Below, in pieces: positions 1,732 to 11,060 of a DNA stretch of 28,318 bases. How positions within the stretch are numbered: position 1 is the first letter of the stretch; every line of letters begins with the position of its first letter. Below the pieces are notes generated by a model. The model was not told the DNA's origin. It searched no databases and saw nothing but the letters and a program-made list of their open reading frames with translations. The stretch is from a virus, in IMG/VR virus record IMGVR_UViG_3300021347_000023, positions 1-28,318 of that record. The stretch is one strand, 5' to 3'. The translations under genes were made by a program, and so were the position numbers.

Positions 1732-1760
1732 TTGACAAGAGGCTGATTTACGGGTATAAT
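1732..1760 (+). promoter_or_regulatory. Rightward early sigma-70 promoter, full consensus
   Basis: TTGACA (1732-1737), a 17 bp spacer and TATAAT (1755-1760) match the bacterial sigma-70 consensus at all 12 positions. The segment TTTACGGGTATAATA resembles the matching part of the leftward promoter. This is the strongest promoter visible in the window and should start the structured leader near 1767, leading into the gene at 2405. Confidence 0.92.
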
Positions 1761-2334: not shown

Positions 2335-2401
2335 AGTATTCCTTATTTTTTAGTTAAAAAGAAGTCACTTGTGACTTTTTAACTAAAAAATAAGGAATAC
2401 T
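2335..2401 (+). promoter_or_regulatory. 31 bp hairpin that buries the ribosome binding site of the first early gene
   Basis: The left arm (2335-2368) and right arm (2371-2401) pair over 31 bp with one 3 nt bulge and a TT apex. The right arm contains TAAGGAAT, the only Shine-Dalgarno-like sequence for the ATG at 2405, so the folded transcript hides it. Such an arrangement can block translation until the stem is cut, melted or bound. Which of these applies cannot be told from sequence. Confidence 0.72.
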
Positions 2402-3644: not shown

Positions 3645-3734
3645 ATGTTATCATTAGCGACAATAATGACAATGGTATTTGGTGGTATAGTATTAGGTTT
3701 AATATTTGAATACTATGGAGGCCATGATGAATAG
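3645..3734 (+). CDS. Tiny single-pass membrane protein, 29 aa
   Basis: The frame is ATG at 3645 to TAG at 3732 with GGAGG 7 nt upstream. Residues 3-22 (SLATIMTMVFGGIVLGLIF) form one hydrophobic helix, followed by a short acidic tail. It overlaps the next gene by a few bases. The good ribosome binding site and tight fit between neighbours support a real gene. The role is unknown; small early membrane peptides can affect the host envelope. Confidence 0.6.
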   Translation: MLSLATIMTMVFGGIVLGLIFEYYGGHDE

Positions 3735-3858
3735 ATATACAGTTTGGGTTGGTGGTGTTGAGGCTAATCAATACTATCTAACCAAGGGCGAGGCAGAAAA
3801 GTTAGCGGCTATCTATATAGCTGAAGGTTATAACGATGTCTATATAGAAAAAGTATAG
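3727..3858 (+). CDS. Hypothetical protein, 43 aa
   Basis: Starts MNRYTVWVGGVEANQYYLT and ends YNDVYIEKV. There are two ATGs in a row (3724, 3727); GGAGG at 3717-3721 gives the better 5 nt spacing to 3727. Short proteins of the form RYTVWVGGxE...YYLTKxEAEKLA are common in phage early regions. The fold looks like a small alpha/beta unit. No function is known to me. Confidence 0.68.
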   Translation: MNRYTVWVGGVEANQYYLTKGEAEKLAAIYIAEGYNDVYIEKV

Positions 3859-3875
3859 TAATTATTATTTTAAAA

Positions 3876-3921
3876 TGTCTTTATTAGTTAGTAAGTTCTT
3901 ACGAACTAACTAATAAAGACA
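3876..3921 (+). repeat. Early-region inverted repeat, copy 1 of 3
   Basis: A 46 nt inverted repeat with arms TGTCTTTATTAGTTAG (3876-3891) and its complement ending at 3921. The apex, GTAAGTTCTTACGA, is shared with the copies at 4510 and 6521. It lies in the gap between the stop at 3858 and the ATG at 3940. No T-run follows. The outer stem differs from copy 2 by paired changes that keep base pairing. Confidence 0.88.
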
Positions 3922-3939
3922 CAAAAGAGGCGAACCGAT

Positions 3940-4098
3940 ATGAAAAAAGTTGATTTGTTTTACACTCCGACTAGCATGAAAGACTTAGAAGATAGATTGG
4001 AAAGCTTTTCAGGCAGCGAGAAGTCTATAGCTTGGCTTGCCGCAATGATGGCTTGGAATCTAGCTTGTGATATAGCTAACAAAGAAGAGGATAAATAA
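3940..4098 (+). CDS. Hypothetical protein, 52 aa
   Basis: The frame is ATG at 3940 to TAA at 4096, preceded by AGAGG at 3926-3930. It starts MKKVDLFYTPTSMKDLEDRL and carries SIAWLAAMMAWNLACDIA, a mildly amphipathic helix, near the C-terminus. The pattern recurs in T7-like marine phages in my memory, always without function. It follows inverted-repeat copy 1 by 18 nt. Confidence 0.7.
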   Translation: MKKVDLFYTPTSMKDLEDRLESFSGSEKSIAWLAAMMAWNLACDIANKEEDK

Positions 4099-4099
4099 T

Positions 4100-4369
4100 A
4101 TGATACATATTACGAAACTAGAAAAGACTTTACGGTCACGTTTAGATGCAGAATTAGTTAGTTCTTGTGGTATACTAGGAATCTGTATTAGTTATAAGAG
4201 CAAACATATAGATGCTTTTAAAGCTGACTCTGAATATATGTTCCATAGTTGGGGCAATAATGGAGATGAAATAGATATATTCTGGGGTCACTATGACCTT
4301 ACAATCTCAGAAGCTCTAAACATTTGGAAAGATAAAATTAACCAGAATCCCGCAGGAAAAAGGTGGTAA
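4100..4369 (+). CDS. Hypothetical protein, 89 aa
   Basis: Starts one base after the previous stop; AGAGG lies about 10 nt upstream. The sequence is of mixed charge with several aromatic residues (MFHSWGNNGDEIDIFWGHYDLT, residues 47-68) and two Cys. No family recognised. Likely co-translated with its neighbours. Confidence 0.75.
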   Translation: MIHITKLEKTLRSRLDAELVSSCGILGICISYKSKHIDAFKADSEYMFHSWGNNGDEIDIFWGHYDLTISEALNIWKDKINQNPAGKRW

Positions 4370-4370
4370 A

Positions 4371-4502
4371 ATGGTAGAAGTTAGCGATGAATTTGTACAT
4401 TATTTAGTTGAAAGACTAATAAAAGATGGATATATTACTAGCGGTGAAGTCTTCAACGCCATCGAAGACTGGAATGACCGCTATATAACTCAAGAAGATT
4501 AA
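4371..4502 (+). CDS. Hypothetical acidic protein, 43 aa
   Basis: The frame is ATG at 4371 to TAA at 4500, one base after the previous stop, with AGGTGG upstream. The protein (MVEVSDEFVHYLVERLIKDG...) is acidic and probably helical. No recognised motif. It is the last gene before inverted-repeat copy 2. Confidence 0.65.
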   Translation: MVEVSDEFVHYLVERLIKDGYITSGEVFNAIEDWNDRYITQED

Positions 4503-4509
4503 TTTTAAA

Positions 4510-4555
4510 TGGACTTATTAGTTAGTAAGTTCTTACGAACTAACTAATAAGTCCA
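4510..4555 (+). repeat. Early-region inverted repeat, copy 2 of 3
   Basis: A 46 nt inverted repeat with arms starting TGGACTTATTAGTTAG at 4510 and ending TAAGTCCA at 4555. It has the same apex as copies 1 and 3. Compared with copy 1, TGTCTT becomes TGGACT in the left arm and the right arm changes to match. It lies 8 nt past the stop at 4502 and 15 nt before the ATG at 4571, with no T-run. Confidence 0.88.
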
Positions 4556-4570
4556 CAATTGGAGATGCCG

Positions 4571-5185
4571 ATGTTTAATACTCATTGCAAAGCAGTTCAG
4601 GAATACTCTCAGCGTAGTGCTACTAATATGTCAGATACAGTTCTGATGGTAGTTCTAAGCATTCAACAAAACTGGCTTGGTGTTGGCGAACAGATAGCCG
4701 ATGTAAGATTAAATAAATCTGAGTCTCGATTCTTGTGGGGCAATAAAGCCAAGACATATAGCTACTTAAAATCTAATCAGCATAAAGTATATGCTCAAGT
4801 GATGGCCGTTATCAACAGCAAACAAACAGATTTCCTAAAGTCTATATCGCTAATGAATATATTCTTGAGGGTTGATGGCTTGGGCTTAGCTAAAGCTGGC
4901 TTCTGCTGTCAGTTGATTGCAGGGTTGGTAGGCTGTATGGATACTCATAACATTAGGATGTATGGGTTGGATACTAAAGACTTAACACTGGCGAAAAATC
5001 CCAAGACCCAGAAGGGCATCGATGCCAACAACGCTAAGATAGATAAATACATAGAGCTATGTGCTGACTATGGCTGTGAGAATCTTTGGAATTCTTGGTG
5101 TAATTTTGTAGCTACTAAATCTAAGCGGTGGCAAGATGGAAATCATGTATCTGAAGTACATTATACTTACTTAACTGGAGAATAG
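4571..5185 (+). CDS. Putative helix-hairpin-helix (HhH-GPD glycosylase-like) protein
   Basis: 204 residues. I chose ATG 4571 because GGAG at 4561-4564 gives a 6 nt spacing; TTG 4559 and ATG 4565 are in frame but badly placed. Residues about 98-130 read FLRVDGLGLAKAGFCCQLIAG then GCMDTHNIRMYG. This matches the glycosylase/endonuclease III layout: an LxGLGxxKA hairpin, then an Asp in a DTH motif that is catalytic in true glycosylases. If so, it would act on modified or uracil bases in DNA. No iron-sulfur Cys cluster is seen. The family assignment is inferred from motif only. Confidence 0.75.
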   Translation: MFNTHCKAVQEYSQRSATNMSDTVLMVVLSIQQNWLGVGEQIADVRLNKSESRFLWGNKAKTYSYLKSNQHKVYAQVMAVINSKQTDFLKSISLMNIFLRVDGLGLAKAGFCCQLIAGLVGCMDTHNIRMYGLDTKDLTLAKNPKTQKGIDANNAKIDKYIELCADYGCENLWNSWCNFVATKSKRWQDGNHVSEVHYTYLTGE

Positions 5186-5187
5186 CT

Positions 5188-5646
5188 ATGAACGACATAG
5201 AATTTTTTGATTGGCTAAAGACTTGTCCGTCTGATGACTGGACTGTTATAGATGCTACCACTTCATCAGTTAAAATTAAATTCCCCATTAAACTCTTTAA
5301 AGAACTAGATAAAAGTTTACTGCTAGTCCATAATGTTACTAGCTCCCAGTTATGGATTACAGACTCTGAGCTGAAAGAAGCCAACGAAAAAGCTTTAGAA
5401 ATCTTTGATAAGTTCTATCTCAACGAAGGCGATGGCGAAGAAATTTGGGAAGAGATAGAAGTGAACGGTAAATTCTATGACATAAATTGTTGGGACGAAG
5501 GTATTGGTGAAGGATATAATGATAGAGAAGGCGCAGTTCATTGTACTATATATCCTTTAGACGAAGATGAAAAAGGCTATCGTTTTAATGATGGGCAAAG
5601 ATGTATTAGATTATTCACTGTTGACAAAAGCTTAGGAGAAGAGTAA
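5188..5646 (+). CDS. Hypothetical acidic protein, 152 aa
   Basis: Starts MNDIEFFDWLKTCPSDDW two bases after the previous stop, with a GGAG 9 nt upstream. It is strongly acidic, especially residues 80-130 (EGDGEEIWEEIEV and following). No family recognised. It could be a small protein inhibitor or DNA mimic given the charge, which is speculation. The stop overlaps the next ATG (TAATG). Confidence 0.78.
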   Translation: MNDIEFFDWLKTCPSDDWTVIDATTSSVKIKFPIKLFKELDKSLLLVHNVTSSQLWITDSELKEANEKALEIFDKFYLNEGDGEEIWEEIEVNGKFYDINCWDEGIGEGYNDREGAVHCTIYPLDEDEKGYRFNDGQRCIRLFTVDKSLGEE

Positions 5647-5786
5647 TGGAATTTAAAACATTCGAGATAGAAGAGTTTCAAAAAATGGTAGCTATGGCAG
5701 TTCGTGAAGGTCTTAGTTTTAGTGCTAATGCCTGCGGTGACGAGCTTCACAGAGTCTATATAATAGAATATCATGGAGGTTATTAA
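5646..5786 (+). CDS. Hypothetical protein, 46 aa
   Basis: ATG 5646 overlaps the preceding stop by one base and its own TAA (5784-5786) overlaps the next ATG in the same way. This double coupling supports a real gene. It starts MEFKTFEIEEFQKMVAMAV and ends VYIIEYHGGY. No motif known. Confidence 0.65.
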   Translation: MEFKTFEIEEFQKMVAMAVREGLSFSANACGDELHRVYIIEYHGGY

Positions 5787-6016
5787 TGGAGTTACCTACC
5801 GAAGAAGAGTTTACCAAGGTTTGTTCGGAGCATCTATGGACTTTCACAATGGAGCCGGACTTAAACAGAGCTATGGAAGGTCTAAAAACATATCACTATA
5901 TACATAATGTTATAAAACTTGGCGGCTCTAAGTACAAAAAGATACATAGAAAAGCCTTTGAAGACTTCATAGATAAAACTAAAGCGGAGGTAAATAGTTA
6001 TGCAGCTCAACCCTGA
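5786..6016 (+). CDS. Hypothetical protein, 76 aa
   Basis: ATG at 5786 follows GGAGG at 5775-5779. It appears helical, with acidic N-terminal and basic central parts (KLGGSKYKKIHRKAFEDFIDKTKAEV). The C-terminus overlaps the next gene by 17 nt. No family recognised. Confidence 0.7.
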   Translation: MELPTEEEFTKVCSEHLWTFTMEPDLNRAMEGLKTYHYIHNVIKLGGSKYKKIHRKAFEDFIDKTKAEVNSYAAQP

Positions 6017-6179
6017 CGAACGAGAAGACCTCGTATTTAAAGTTATAGGTCAGATAAGAATTGATATATATGAAGGGGCATATGAAGCTTTATTTGAAAT
6101 GCTAGAGCAGATAGACCCCAGATATTTAATAGGCTTTTTAGAAGAGGCAGAGCACCATGAAAAACTCAGATGGAATTAA
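6000..6179 (+). CDS. Hypothetical acidic protein, 59 aa
   Basis: ATG at 6000 with GGAGG at 5987-5991; TAA ends at 6179. It overlaps the previous gene by 17 nt. The protein (MQLNPDERED...) is acidic and probably all helical, ending in EEAEHHEKLRWN. No motif recognised. Confidence 0.65.
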   Translation: MQLNPDEREDLVFKVIGQIRIDIYEGAYEALFEMLEQIDPRYLIGFLEEAEHHEKLRWN

Positions 6180-6354
6180 AGAAGGTAATGTTATGTGGCG
6201 CATAGACTTTCTAGGATTATCTGGATGCCCTATGTATAGTTTTAGTTTAGAAGATGCTCATAAAGTTGCAAGACAGCAGAGCAGTGAGCCTTATATTGTT
6301 ACTATGATTACTGGTGATAGACTTCAACAGGAGGTAAGCAGTGGAAAAATCTGA
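6157..6354 (+). CDS. Hypothetical protein, 65 aa (or 53 aa from 6193)
   Basis: Two in-frame starts are plausible: 6157 with GAGG 9 nt upstream and a 23 nt overlap with the previous gene, and 6193 (MWRIDFLGLSG...) with GAAGG 7 nt upstream and no overlap. The core WRIDFLGLSGCPMYSFSLEDAHKVA looks like a small alpha/beta unit. No family known. Confidence 0.65.
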   Translation: MKNSDGIKEGNVMWRIDFLGLSGCPMYSFSLEDAHKVARQQSSEPYIVTMITGDRLQQEVSSGKI

Positions 6355-6508
6355 AGAGTTCTTTGAAATCTTAAATCAATTAAACATTAATGCAAAGTAT
6401 TTTAAAAACAATATAAACTTTAAGCCTAGCGAAGATTTGCTAGACCGTTTAAATGATATTGAATTTGAGTTGCTAAGCATGATAATCAAAGATAAAGAAA
6501 AACAGTAA
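6341..6508 (+). CDS. Hypothetical protein with GTG start, 55 aa
   Basis: The frame starts at GTG 6341 behind GGAGG at 6331-6335 and ends TAA 6506-6508. It overlaps the previous gene by 14 nt. The protein is helical and charged (EKSEEFFEILNQLNI...FELLSMIIKDKEKQ). Without the GTG start it would be missed by an ATG-only search. Last of the small early genes before inverted-repeat copy 3. Confidence 0.62.
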   Translation: MEKSEEFFEILNQLNINAKYFKNNINFKPSEDLLDRLNDIEFELLSMIIKDKEKQ

Positions 6509-6510
6509 CC

Positions 6511-6576
6511 AATTACTTAATGACTTATAAGTTAGTAAGTTCTTACGAACTAACTTATAAGTCAATTAAGTTAATT
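6511..6576 (+). repeat. Early-region inverted repeat, copy 3 of 3, with longer arms
   Basis: The core is 6521-6564: TGACTTATAAGTTAG, then the same GTAAGTTCTTACGA apex, then the complement. Beyond it AATTACTTAA (6511-6520) pairs imperfectly with ATTAAGTTAATT (6565-6576). TTATAAG/CTTATAA replaces the TTATTAG/CTAATAA of copies 1 and 2, again keeping the pairs. It marks the end of the small-gene cluster. Confidence 0.88.
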
Positions 6577-6602
6577 GTAGCACACTTTCATGGCGGTGTC
6601 AA
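6574..6602 (-). promoter_or_regulatory. Possible leftward (antisense) sigma-70 promoter
   Basis: On the minus strand TTGACA (6602-6597), a 17 bp spacer and TACAAT (6579-6574) preceded by TGC make a strong extended -10 promoter. It would start transcription near 6567, inside inverted-repeat copy 3, and run antisense to the small early genes. Only the hexamers support it, and no gene lies downstream on that strand. Confidence 0.5.
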
Positions 6603-6614
6603 GTAAAAAACCGC

Positions 6615-6643
6615 TTTACTTTTAAATAAATATATGTTATAAT
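6615..6643 (+). promoter_or_regulatory. Rightward promoter for the DUF932/MazG gene group
   Basis: TTTACT (6615-6620), a 17 bp spacer and TATAAT (6638-6643) give a perfect -10 and a four-of-six -35. Transcription would start near 6650 and reach the ATG at 6680. Two direct copies of ACATTCAAATA (6646-6656 and 6658-6668) sit at the start point and could be an operator. Confidence 0.78.
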
Positions 6644-6679: not shown

Positions 6680-6937
6680 ATGGAAACTTTATTCAACTTA
6701 ATCGCAAAACTAACACACTCTACAGTATTTAGCGGCAAGAAAAACGGTACAGTTTTAGGTAAGTCTTTTATTGTACGTAAACGTCAAAGCAAAAACCGAT
6801 TCGAGGTTAGCCGTGGAGAGTGTTTCAATATCTTCCATTGCTATAAGTGGGCGTTCTACGTTCAGCACAATCAGTCTCGAAGCGTTAGCTTCAAGAATAT
6901 TAAAGATATTAATGGCGTTGAAGGAGTACAAGCATAA
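6680..6937 (+). CDS. Hypothetical basic protein, 85 aa
   Basis: First gene after the promoter at 6615-6643, with AGG about 10 nt before the ATG. It is basic and rich in aromatics (FIVRKRQSKNRFEVSRGECFNIFHCYKWAFYVQ, residues 30-62), perhaps a small beta-rich nucleic-acid-binding protein. Its stop overlaps the start of the DUF932 gene (TAATG). No family recognised. Confidence 0.75.
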   Translation: METLFNLIAKLTHSTVFSGKKNGTVLGKSFIVRKRQSKNRFEVSRGECFNIFHCYKWAFYVQHNQSRSVSFKNIKDINGVEGVQA

Positions 6938-7869
6938 TGAATATTACACCAATGTTTAAAAACAATTCATCACTTCAAGCCATCCGAGAGGGTGGCTACG
7001 GCTCAGCAGATTTTAATATTGCAACACAGCCGTTAAGTTATTTTACACCTGAGCATGGTAATATCCAAAGCTCTAAGTCTGTTATCTATCGAACCGATAC
7101 TGGTATAGAACTTGGGGTTCATGGCCACGGCTACAAGCCAGTAGCACCAAAGCAAATGATAAATGTTACTCGTAATATTATTGAGCGTTCTGGCCTCCAA
7201 GTAGAAGGTATTCAAGAAACTATTCGTACCTCTCACGATGGCTCTAGAACTTTTGTGCAGTATAAACTACCTGAACATACCTATAGAACTACTGACGGTG
7301 ATACTGCATCACTGGGGTTGCTTGCAGTATCAAGCTTTGATGGTACTTGGCCGTTTATGATTAGTGCCGCTGCAATTCAATCAGCTTGTACAAATCTACA
7401 AGTCTTTGTTGGTGGTGAGGTTGCTGTATTTAAAGCTAAGCATACCCGAAACTTAGACATTGAGGTTGGCTCAAGAGTTATCACCAAAGCCTTAGATGTT
7501 TTTGAAAACCAACGTGAGCTGTGGGACAGGTGGAGTCACGAAAGTTTAACAGACTCTGACGCATTCCAAGAGATTGTATCAGCCTTAAAGGTTGAGTCAG
7601 CACAAAAGATTCTGAGTGATACCTACTGGAGAACAGGTGAAGATATTATGCGTAATATGCCAAGGTCTAATCCATCATTAGAATATATTTATAATGCTTG
7701 GCATAAATACAAAAGACGTTTAGGTGCTAATCGTTGGGCATTATATAATGCTATGACTGATTGGTCTACCCATGCAACAGCACAGCGTAAAGATGCTATA
7801 ATAAATATAGCTGCAACACAGAACTCTAGGCAAGCTGTTGTTCAGAACTACTTCTCAAAGGTGGCCTAA
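6937..7869 (+). CDS. DUF932 domain protein
   Basis: 310 residues. The middle reads LGVHGHGYKPVAPKQM (about 58-73) and LAVSSFDGTWPFMISAAAIQSACTNLQVF (about 129-157). Both match the pattern of the DUF932 phage/plasmid family, full length for that family. The family occurs on plasmids and phages near replication or anti-restriction genes; its biochemical role is not settled. Starts are coupled on both sides by TAATG-type overlaps. A role in early replication or host-defence evasion is inferred from position only. Confidence 0.85.
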   Translation: MNITPMFKNNSSLQAIREGGYGSADFNIATQPLSYFTPEHGNIQSSKSVIYRTDTGIELGVHGHGYKPVAPKQMINVTRNIIERSGLQVEGIQETIRTSHDGSRTFVQYKLPEHTYRTTDGDTASLGLLAVSSFDGTWPFMISAAAIQSACTNLQVFVGGEVAVFKAKHTRNLDIEVGSRVITKALDVFENQRELWDRWSHESLTDSDAFQEIVSALKVESAQKILSDTYWRTGEDIMRNMPRSNPSLEYIYNAWHKYKRRLGANRWALYNAMTDWSTHATAQRKDAIINIAATQNSRQAVVQNYFSKVA

Positions 7870-9416: not shown

Positions 9417-11060
9417 ATGCCGTTTGTTAAATTTCATCTGCCCTGTCATTCGTGCGGAGGCAGTGACCCAGTAAGTCAGAACGATGACGGGTCAGCGTAT
9501 TGCTTTAGTTGCAATACTTATTTTAAAGACTACGGCACACCGGAAGTGCAACATCAAGATACTGTAACGGACTTTACAAAGTATCAGCCCAATGGAACTG
9601 GAAGCGGTTCTAGTTATAATGCCTTGACCGATAGAGGTATCAGTATTGAGACAGCCAAAAAGTATGGCGTTAAATCTACTACCCTTAACGGTCAGGTTAC
9701 TAGCCACCACTATCCTTACTTCCACAAAGGCGAAGAGGTAGCAACAAAAGTTAGAAAGCTCAACAAGCAGTTTGCTTGGAAGGGTGATTCTAAAGAAACG
9801 GGCTTGTTCGGAGAACAGCTCTTTAAATCAGGCGGTAAGTTTATTACAGTAGTAGAAGGAGAGTGTGATGCTATGGCAGCATACGAACTACTTGGAAGTA
9901 AGTGGCCTGTTGTATCTATAAAATCAGGAGCACAAGGAGGTGCTCGTGACGTTAAGAATAGCTTAGAGTTTCTAGAATCTTTCGATACAGTAGTGTTATG
10001 TTTCGACAGCGACACCGTTGGCAAGGACGGAGCTAAGGCAATTGCAAAGCTTCTCACGCCCAACAAGGCTAAGATTATGACACTGCCCGAAGGGTTCAAA
10101 GACCCTAACGATATGCTCAAGGAGCGTAAGCATTCCACCTTTGTTAATTGTTTCTGGGATGCAAAAGTCTATACCCCTTCTGGGATTATGAACCTGTCCA
10201 ATCAGCTAGATGAATACAAGCGTTTACGGACAGAAAAGCTTCCGTCAATTCCATATCCTTGGAGTGGATTAAACAAGAAGCTAGAAGGCATGAGAGCAGG
10301 TGAGCTTGTAACTCTTACTGGCGGCACTGGTCTTGGTAAGTCTTCAGTAACCAGAGAACTAGAACACTGGCTCATTAACCATACAAAAGATAACGTAGGT
10401 ATTGTAGCTCTTGAAGAGAACTGGAGCCGCACAGCCGAAGGTATCATGGCAGTTGAAGCTAACGCCAAGCTGCATCTGGATAGCGTTAAGAATGAGATAG
10501 GTGATGAAAAACTTGAACAGTATTACCGCAAGGTATTCATGGGAGAGAACGAGGGTAGAGTTTGGATTCATGCTCACCTTGGTGTCAATCACCTAGAAGA
10601 TATATTCAGTAAGCTGCGCTATCTAATTGTAGGTCTTGACTGCAAGTGGGTCGTAGTTGACCACCTTCATATGCTTGTACTTCAAGCTTTAGAGGGTGAC
10701 GAGCGTAAAGCTATTGATGGTATTATGCATCGGCTACGCTCTCTTGTAGAAGAGACAGGTGTAGGAATGATTCTAGTATCTCACCTGCGTAGAGTTGAAG
10801 GCAACCGTGGGCATGAGAACGGTATTGAAACTGGACTCTCACACCTTAGAGGTTCACAAAGTATTGCACAGTTATCAGACTGCGTTATATCTTTAGAGCG
10901 CAACCAACAATCAGAGGATGAGATTGAGGCATCAACCACCAAGGTTCGTGTCCTTAAATCTAGATACACTGGTGACGTTGGTGTTGCTTGTAGTCTTCTC
11001 TATGATGGAGGCACAGGTAGACTTTCAGAAACATACAAAGAGGAGGAGCTTGAGTTATGA
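9417..11060 (+). CDS. T7 gp4-like bifunctional primase-helicase
   Basis: 547 residues. The N-terminal zinc ribbon has C10, C13, C29 and C32. The Toprim primase domain has VVEGECDAMAAYELL (E147) and FDSD (D197, D199). The C-terminal DnaB/RecA-like helicase has Walker A GGTGLGKSS (K308), an acidic VVVDHLHML motif and MILVSHLRR. The architecture and length match T7 gp4 (566). It unwinds the fork as a ring and makes primers for the neighbouring polymerase. GAGGT lies 7 nt upstream of the ATG, and the stop overlaps the polymerase start (ATGA). Confidence 0.96.
   Translation: MPFVKFHLPCHSCGGSDPVSQNDDGSAYCFSCNTYFKDYGTPEVQHQDTVTDFTKYQPNGTGSGSSYNALTDRGISIETAKKYGVKSTTLNGQVTSHHYPYFHKGEEVATKVRKLNKQFAWKGDSKETGLFGEQLFKSGGKFITVVEGECDAMAAYELLGSKWPVVSIKSGAQGGARDVKNSLEFLESFDTVVLCFDSDTVGKDGAKAIAKLLTPNKAKIMTLPEGFKDPNDMLKERKHSTFVNCFWDAKVYTPSGIMNLSNQLDEYKRLRTEKLPSIPYPWSGLNKKLEGMRAGELVTLTGGTGLGKSSVTRELEHWLINHTKDNVGIVALEENWSRTAEGIMAVEANAKLHLDSVKNEIGDEKLEQYYRKVFMGENEGRVWIHAHLGVNHLEDIFSKLRYLIVGLDCKWVVVDHLHMLVLQALEGDERKAIDGIMHRLRSLVEETGVGMILVSHLRRVEGNRGHENGIETGLSHLRGSQSIAQLSDCVISLERNQQSEDEIEASTTKVRVLKSRYTGDVGVACSLLYDGGTGRLSETYKEEELEL

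Follow-up and report, generated by a model that had tools for sequence, protein, structure and literature searches.

The 28,318-nt DNA of an uncultured marine phage examined here (IMG/VR record IMGVR_UViG_3300021347_000023, positions 1 to 28,318; 'the window' below means this whole stretch) carries three intergenic copies of an inverted repeat, which belong to an apparently undescribed family of small hairpins present in many marine phages. What this family conserves is a 12-nt tip containing a tandem purine internal loop, rather than the 26-nt centre shared by the three copies. The observation, made in an earlier note on this DNA, is confirmed and is much broader than first noted. As to function, which we infer from sequence, the hairpins probably mark sites where phage mRNA is processed or bound. 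The hairpin sites of the window are as follows, with bit scores from a covariance model that was also used to find copies with altered tips.

3876–3921, plus strand: hairpin copy 1; perfect 17-bp stem (arms 3876–3892 and 3905–3921) and 12-nt tip at 3893–3904 (AAGTTCTTACGA); 54.4 bits.
4510–4555, plus strand: hairpin copy 2; perfect 17-bp stem (arms 4510–4526 and 4539–4555) and 12-nt tip at 4527–4538; 53.3 bits.
6511–6576, plus strand: hairpin copy 3; perfect 16-bp upper stem (6521–6536 with 6549–6564), tip at 6537–6548 and an imperfect lower stem; 51.0 bits.
2335–2401, plus strand: fourth site; perfect 27-bp hairpin immediately 5' of the first early gene, at 2405.

The 26-nt centre AGTTAGTAAGTTCTTACGAACTAACT is the same at 3876–3921, 4510–4555 and ∼ 6511–6576, its only three occurrences in the record, and the outer stems of these copies differ by compensated pair changes, both as the earlier note had described. 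It was also right that all three lie between open reading frames (ORFs) and that none is followed by a T-run. Their folding z-scores are −7.2, −6.7 and −7.7 for copies 1, 2 and 3, respectively, and no shuffled sequence was as stable. The statement that no related copy exists elsewhere in the window needs one correction: the hairpin at 2335–2401 occupies the position of a genuine tip-motif copy in the relatives L025 and L001, and in the window its tip has diverged and the motif has been lost. Intrinsic terminators were considered and rejected, as the stems are AT-rich rather than GC-rich, lack the T-run and in none of the three copies look terminator-like.

Searches of IMG/VR recovered the exact 26-mer in 39 viral stretches; for its 16-nt core GTRAGTTCTTACGAAC, the matches listed come from more than 118 stretches, a lower bound. 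Since some of the core matches are due to chance, pairing was tested on flanks chosen irrespective of it: among the 76 distinct flank pairs that surround the exact core, 44 had 9–10 of 10 positions paired, against 1.2 expected with shuffled partners. In 40 nonredundant copies the covariation score was 0.805, compared with 0.166 (standard deviation 0.019) for shuffled and no more than 0.198 for slid partners, and 14 of the 15 stem pairs had changed on both sides; these copies had been picked beforehand for pairing, which inflates their percentage of paired cells, a bias from which the test on 76 flanks is free. On the covariation and flank-pairing tests, a chance origin was rejected. When only the outer stem was specified and the tip left free, 15 of 18 distinct tips proved to be the same core. 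Stem sequences are unrelated between phages and their pairing is nevertheless kept. Both the centre and the pairing are thus clearly present in related phages, whose covariation strongly upholds the proposed selection on the stem.

The carriers span several phage types with differing terminase and portal genes, so that the description as a small phage-specific repeat, also put forward earlier, is too narrow. Among 50 carrier records searched over their whole length, five gave only weak matches, probably by chance, and the rest had one to seven strong matches each. The covariance models of Rfam release 15 matched none of the window hairpins and nothing at all in six other carriers, and we found no description of the element in the open-access literature within the limited coverage of the library used. 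Bacterial genomes gave no exact match to TAGTRAGTTCTTACGAACTA or GTAGAGTATCTTACGATAC, the two patterns tried. The element was likewise not found in the searched stretches of the isolated relatives HTVC115P, HTVC103P, HTVC027P, HTVC023P, HMO-2011, CRP-5, CRP-13, CRP-114, CRP-361, CRP-902, ICBM2, DSL-LC04 and Pag-Yong1, most of whose records were covered only in part by the model search. Some unusual copies were seen. At 4628–4653 of L011, arms from two different sites are joined at the 26-nt centre, reflecting either recombination between copies or an assembly error, and at apparently orthologous sites in L045 (3297), L062 (8220) and L070 (553) the outer stem is that of standard copies and the tip is unrelated (AGCTTTCTTTGA or a sequence close to it).

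From base to tip, the hairpin consists of a lower stem, a frequent single mismatch, an upper stem of 10–11 bp, the tandem purine internal loop (RA/GA, where R is a purine), 2–3 bp and a UCU(U) loop. Tip variants found with the covariance model include triloops of sequence UCU, an additional purine, GUA/UAC combined with UCU, CU/AG substituting for GU/AC, and a U-G wobble; the GUA/UAC version occurs in 62 stretches, with up to four copies in each. A scan by shape only, run on loci retrieved by means of the motif and accepting any hairpin with a 2 × 2 internal loop near the tip, returned GA/GA 110 times, AA/GA 25 times and their reverse complements TC/TC and TC/TT 129 times, all other combinations occurring seven times or fewer; GA/GA was fixed and the inner pairs varied. 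This dominance of GA/GA and AA/GA indicates that the tandem purine internal loop is the fixed feature, and by sequence rule it likely forms sheared G.A pairs.

In 30 of 74 copies, pair 11 or 12 is the first in the stem to be mismatched, and the three pairs beyond the first mismatch are all restored in 42 of 63 cases. Where the mismatch lies at pair 11 or 12, it would bound an upper helix of about one turn, but this does not apply to every copy, and copies 1 and 2 of the window are perfect through 17 bp. One phage, L061, has at 9493–9529 a tip variant with GA/GA around AC-AUA-GU in addition to a standard copy. An H-type pseudoknot in the core (GTAA/TTAC with GTTC/GAAC) was rejected because it would leave no nucleotides for the connecting loops and because the core variants ATAC and TAAC break the pairing. 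A kink-turn, with its 3-nt bulge beside tandem G.A pairs, was rejected because the internal loop is mostly 2 × 2 with at most one extra purine.

Analysis of the placement of the copies showed that they lie between the cistrons of polycistronic phage mRNA, the purine-capped strand being the coding strand. On the sense strand, a Shine-Dalgarno (SD) sequence and ATG follow in 110 of 154 copies, at a median of 28 nt from the modelled end, compared with three on the opposite strand and with 19% of random sense positions; upstream, the nearest stop codon is at a median distance of 16 nt. The genes downstream of the copies fall into 51 unrelated clusters, which speaks for a signal of general use and against a switch tied to particular genes. 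For the 204-aa gene that follows copy 2, the hairpin is kept at this position in 17 orthologues, the most distant with 67% protein identity. The surroundings of the three copies in the window are listed below.

1732–1760, plus strand: early promoter TTGACA-17-TATAAT, a perfect (12/12) sigma70 match, preceding the operon that carries the hairpins.
3706–3858, plus strand: small ORF 5' of copy 1; its stop lies 17 nt ahead of the hairpin.
3940–4098, plus strand: small ORF 3' of copy 1; an SD-like GAGG lies between the hairpin and the ATG.
4371–4502, plus strand: small ORF 5' of copy 2; its stop lies 7 nt ahead of the hairpin.
4571–5185, plus strand: the 204-aa gene 3' of copy 2, with SD sequence GGAG.
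6341–6508, plus strand: final gene of the early operon, ending 2 nt ahead of copy 3.
6574–6602, minus strand: TTGACA-17-TACAAT, a leftward promoter of the sigma70 type that adjoins copy 3.
6615–6643, plus strand: promoter hexamers TTTACT-17-TATAAT of the next, rightward operon.

Copies 1 and 2 thus occupy the gaps from a stop codon to a ribosome-binding site, and copy 3 stands after the last gene of the operon and ahead of the promoter of the next one. The hexamers of the leftward promoter at 6574–6602 recur in most relatives despite a diverged spacer; as this promoter abuts copy 3, transcription from it would begin at the hairpin and yield RNA antisense to the early operon. The early promoter is separated from the first gene by a long noncoding leader (1760–2290) with many short repeats (AGACTTTTAAAGTCT and similar), which ends in an 18-bp terminator-like minus-strand hairpin at 2291–2331. 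The gene at 2405–2884 encodes a basic protein with a Lys-rich tail and the ending TLTQRVEAMEA, which matched no PHROGs or Pfam family and whose versions in relatives follow the hairpin. In L061, L074, L094 and L122, the gene 3' of the hairpin encodes another, distinct Lys-rich protein, which has a motif similar to TQRV. A DUF932 protein (phrog_1221), encoded at 6937–7869, is common to many other carriers.

The leading explanations are those already proposed in the earlier note, RNase III or mRNA-stability sites and protein targets. We favour, with a probability of roughly 0.43, an intercistronic hairpin for mRNA processing or stability whose purine-capped tip would be recognized, probably by an RNase III-type factor of the host. 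The hairpin would be transcribed within the polycistronic early mRNA and would fold into the 10–11 bp upper helix, the RA/GA cap, the 2–3 bp stem and the UCU(U) loop, often with a single mismatch below. A host-encoded, double-strand-specific endoribonuclease, positioned by the tip together with a single turn of the helix, might then cut near the stem mismatch, and cutting would separate the small early cistrons, each keeping a protecting stem. In its favour are the covariation and flank pairing, the sense-strand position ahead of SD sequences of many unrelated genes, the mismatch at pair 11 or 12 in part of the copies and the predominance of GA/GA and AA/GA caps, all described above. The nearest working model is phage T7, where an early mRNA of ∼ 7 kb, made by host RNA polymerase, is cleaved at five sites by the RNase III of the host (PMC4858673).

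That the reader would come from the host is suggested by the carriers themselves. No RNase III domain was detected in any of 18 carrier records by a search that was positive in 8 of 14 control genomes, BLAST clustering revealed no protein family common to all carriers, and a T7-type RNA polymerase (PF00940) was found in none of 17 carriers by a search that worked in two control phages, although its model may miss polymerases of the N4 type. A host factor is therefore the simplest reader. With somewhat less than even confidence, we propose that the hairpins constitute a new class of phage RNA signal, a modular tandem-purine-capped tag before many early genes. The host factor reading its tip, either a tip-specific RNase III or an RNA-binding protein, would be exploited in common by several unrelated marine phage lineages.

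Several points weigh against processing by a tip-reading RNase III. Copy 3 stands at the end of the operon next to the leftward promoter and not ahead of an SD sequence, and the bacterial RNase III sites known to us need no conserved tip. Stems selected as RNA usually accept G-U better than other mismatches, but over pairs 1–12 we counted 13 G-U against 87 other mismatches, a G-U share of 0.13 where 0.155 is expected at random, and over pairs 1–8 two against 19 (592 cells). Internal controls for this comparison, terminators and tRNAs on the same contigs, were too few or too contaminated to be of use. Among close orthologues, eleven double Watson-Crick changes were seen, mostly T-A/A-T flips, and only two changes passed through G-U. 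This lack of G-U could reflect selection at the level of DNA, repair of the palindrome by template switching, or a reader that demands a regular helix.

The main rival, which we regard as possible but rather doubtful, is that the hairpins are operators: a phage or host RNA-binding protein would recognize the purine-capped tip in mRNA leaders and control translation, decay or antitermination of an early regulon. A fixed tip sequence and geometry on a free stem is what protein-bound hairpins show, copies precede as many as 51 gene clusters, and a frequent downstream gene encodes a Lys-rich protein in the window family, which could control itself. However, this protein is present in only part of the carriers, which have no protein family common to all of them, and the SD sequence is left free by the hairpin.

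A reading at the level of DNA appears unlikely, but retains some probability because G-U is not favoured. The hairpins would be extruded as cruciforms and the purine-capped strand read as DNA, for instance as a hairpin promoter or priming site like the early promoters of phage N4. In addition to G-U (in DNA, G-T) being tolerated no better than other mismatches and to the T-A to A-T flips between close orthologues, this reading draws on the N4 promoters themselves, in which tip bases are likewise conserved, stem bases are free as long as they pair, and a sheared G:A pair is present (PMC4496689). N4, however, requires its hairpin in the template strand, whereas here it is the coding strand that bears the purine cap; the stems are far longer than those of N4, and the operon is flanked by ordinary sigma70 promoters. 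The giant protein of the window is an endolysin-family virion protein, and the search for T7-type enzymes, with a model that may miss those of the N4 type, was negative in 17 carriers.

It is quite improbable that template switching within the palindrome keeps the stems perfect and that the hairpins are generic stabilizers of 5' ends without a specific partner. Perfect Watson-Crick stems, scarce G-U pairs and one-step flips fit such a process, as does the survival of the perfect 27-bp stem at 2335–2401 with a diverged tip, but it leaves unexplained why the same RA/GA tip recurs across phages with unrelated stems and genes. Least probable, and disfavoured among the proposals of the earlier note, is a mobile or selfish hairpin, similar to repetitive extragenic palindromic (REP) sequences or miniature inverted-repeat transposable elements, that spreads among gaps: several copies per genome with near-identical stems would suit it, but the tip is fixed while stems are unrelated between phages and still paired, orthologous sites retain the element at 67% protein identity, and orientation tracks transcription. 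A REP palindrome proper, with its conserved stem and GTAG or CGTC tag, was rejected because stem sequences are unrelated between copies.

Recognition of the tip by a specific factor would mean that abundant uncultured marine phages share a regulatory code that is independent of gene content, and the tip would then give a handle on how such phages control their early mRNA; a bacterial RNase III that recognizes a particular tip would, if true, be new. Should the hairpins act as DNA instead, they would represent a hairpin control element of a new kind. Under either reading, the covariance model is a ready marker for annotating such phages.

Among known systems, the hairpins resemble the RNase III signals of T7 (R0.3 to R1.3, R1.1) in that several coding-strand hairpins lie between the early genes of a lytic phage, near ribosome-binding sites, and perhaps in a helix of roughly one turn that ends, in part of the copies, at an internal irregularity. 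They differ from the T7 signals in the fixed tandem purine tip on freely varying stems, which recurs in unrelated phages. The AGNN-tetraloop substrates of the yeast RNase III Rnt1p share a conserved tip, a variable, covarying stem and a stem length that serves as a ruler, but Rnt1p is eukaryotic and its tip is different; we know of no bacterial enzyme of this kind. The early promoters of N4, DNA hairpins used by the virion RNA polymerase, are similar in their few early-region copies, conserved tip, sheared G:A and stem bases that are free if paired, whereas they are template-strand hairpins of 5–7 bp and the present ones have longer stems and lie on the coding strand. The nut/boxB RNAs of lambda and the put RNAs of HK022 are also hairpins of early phage mRNA with conserved tips, but they occur in one or two copies near early promoters, in contrast to up to seven inside operons here, and for the present family no boxA or partner protein was identified (no protein being common to the carriers in BLAST clustering). 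Finally, REP palindromes are likewise short intergenic inverted repeats in several copies, but in them the stem is conserved and the loop varies, whereas in the marine phage hairpins the tip is fixed and the stem varies.

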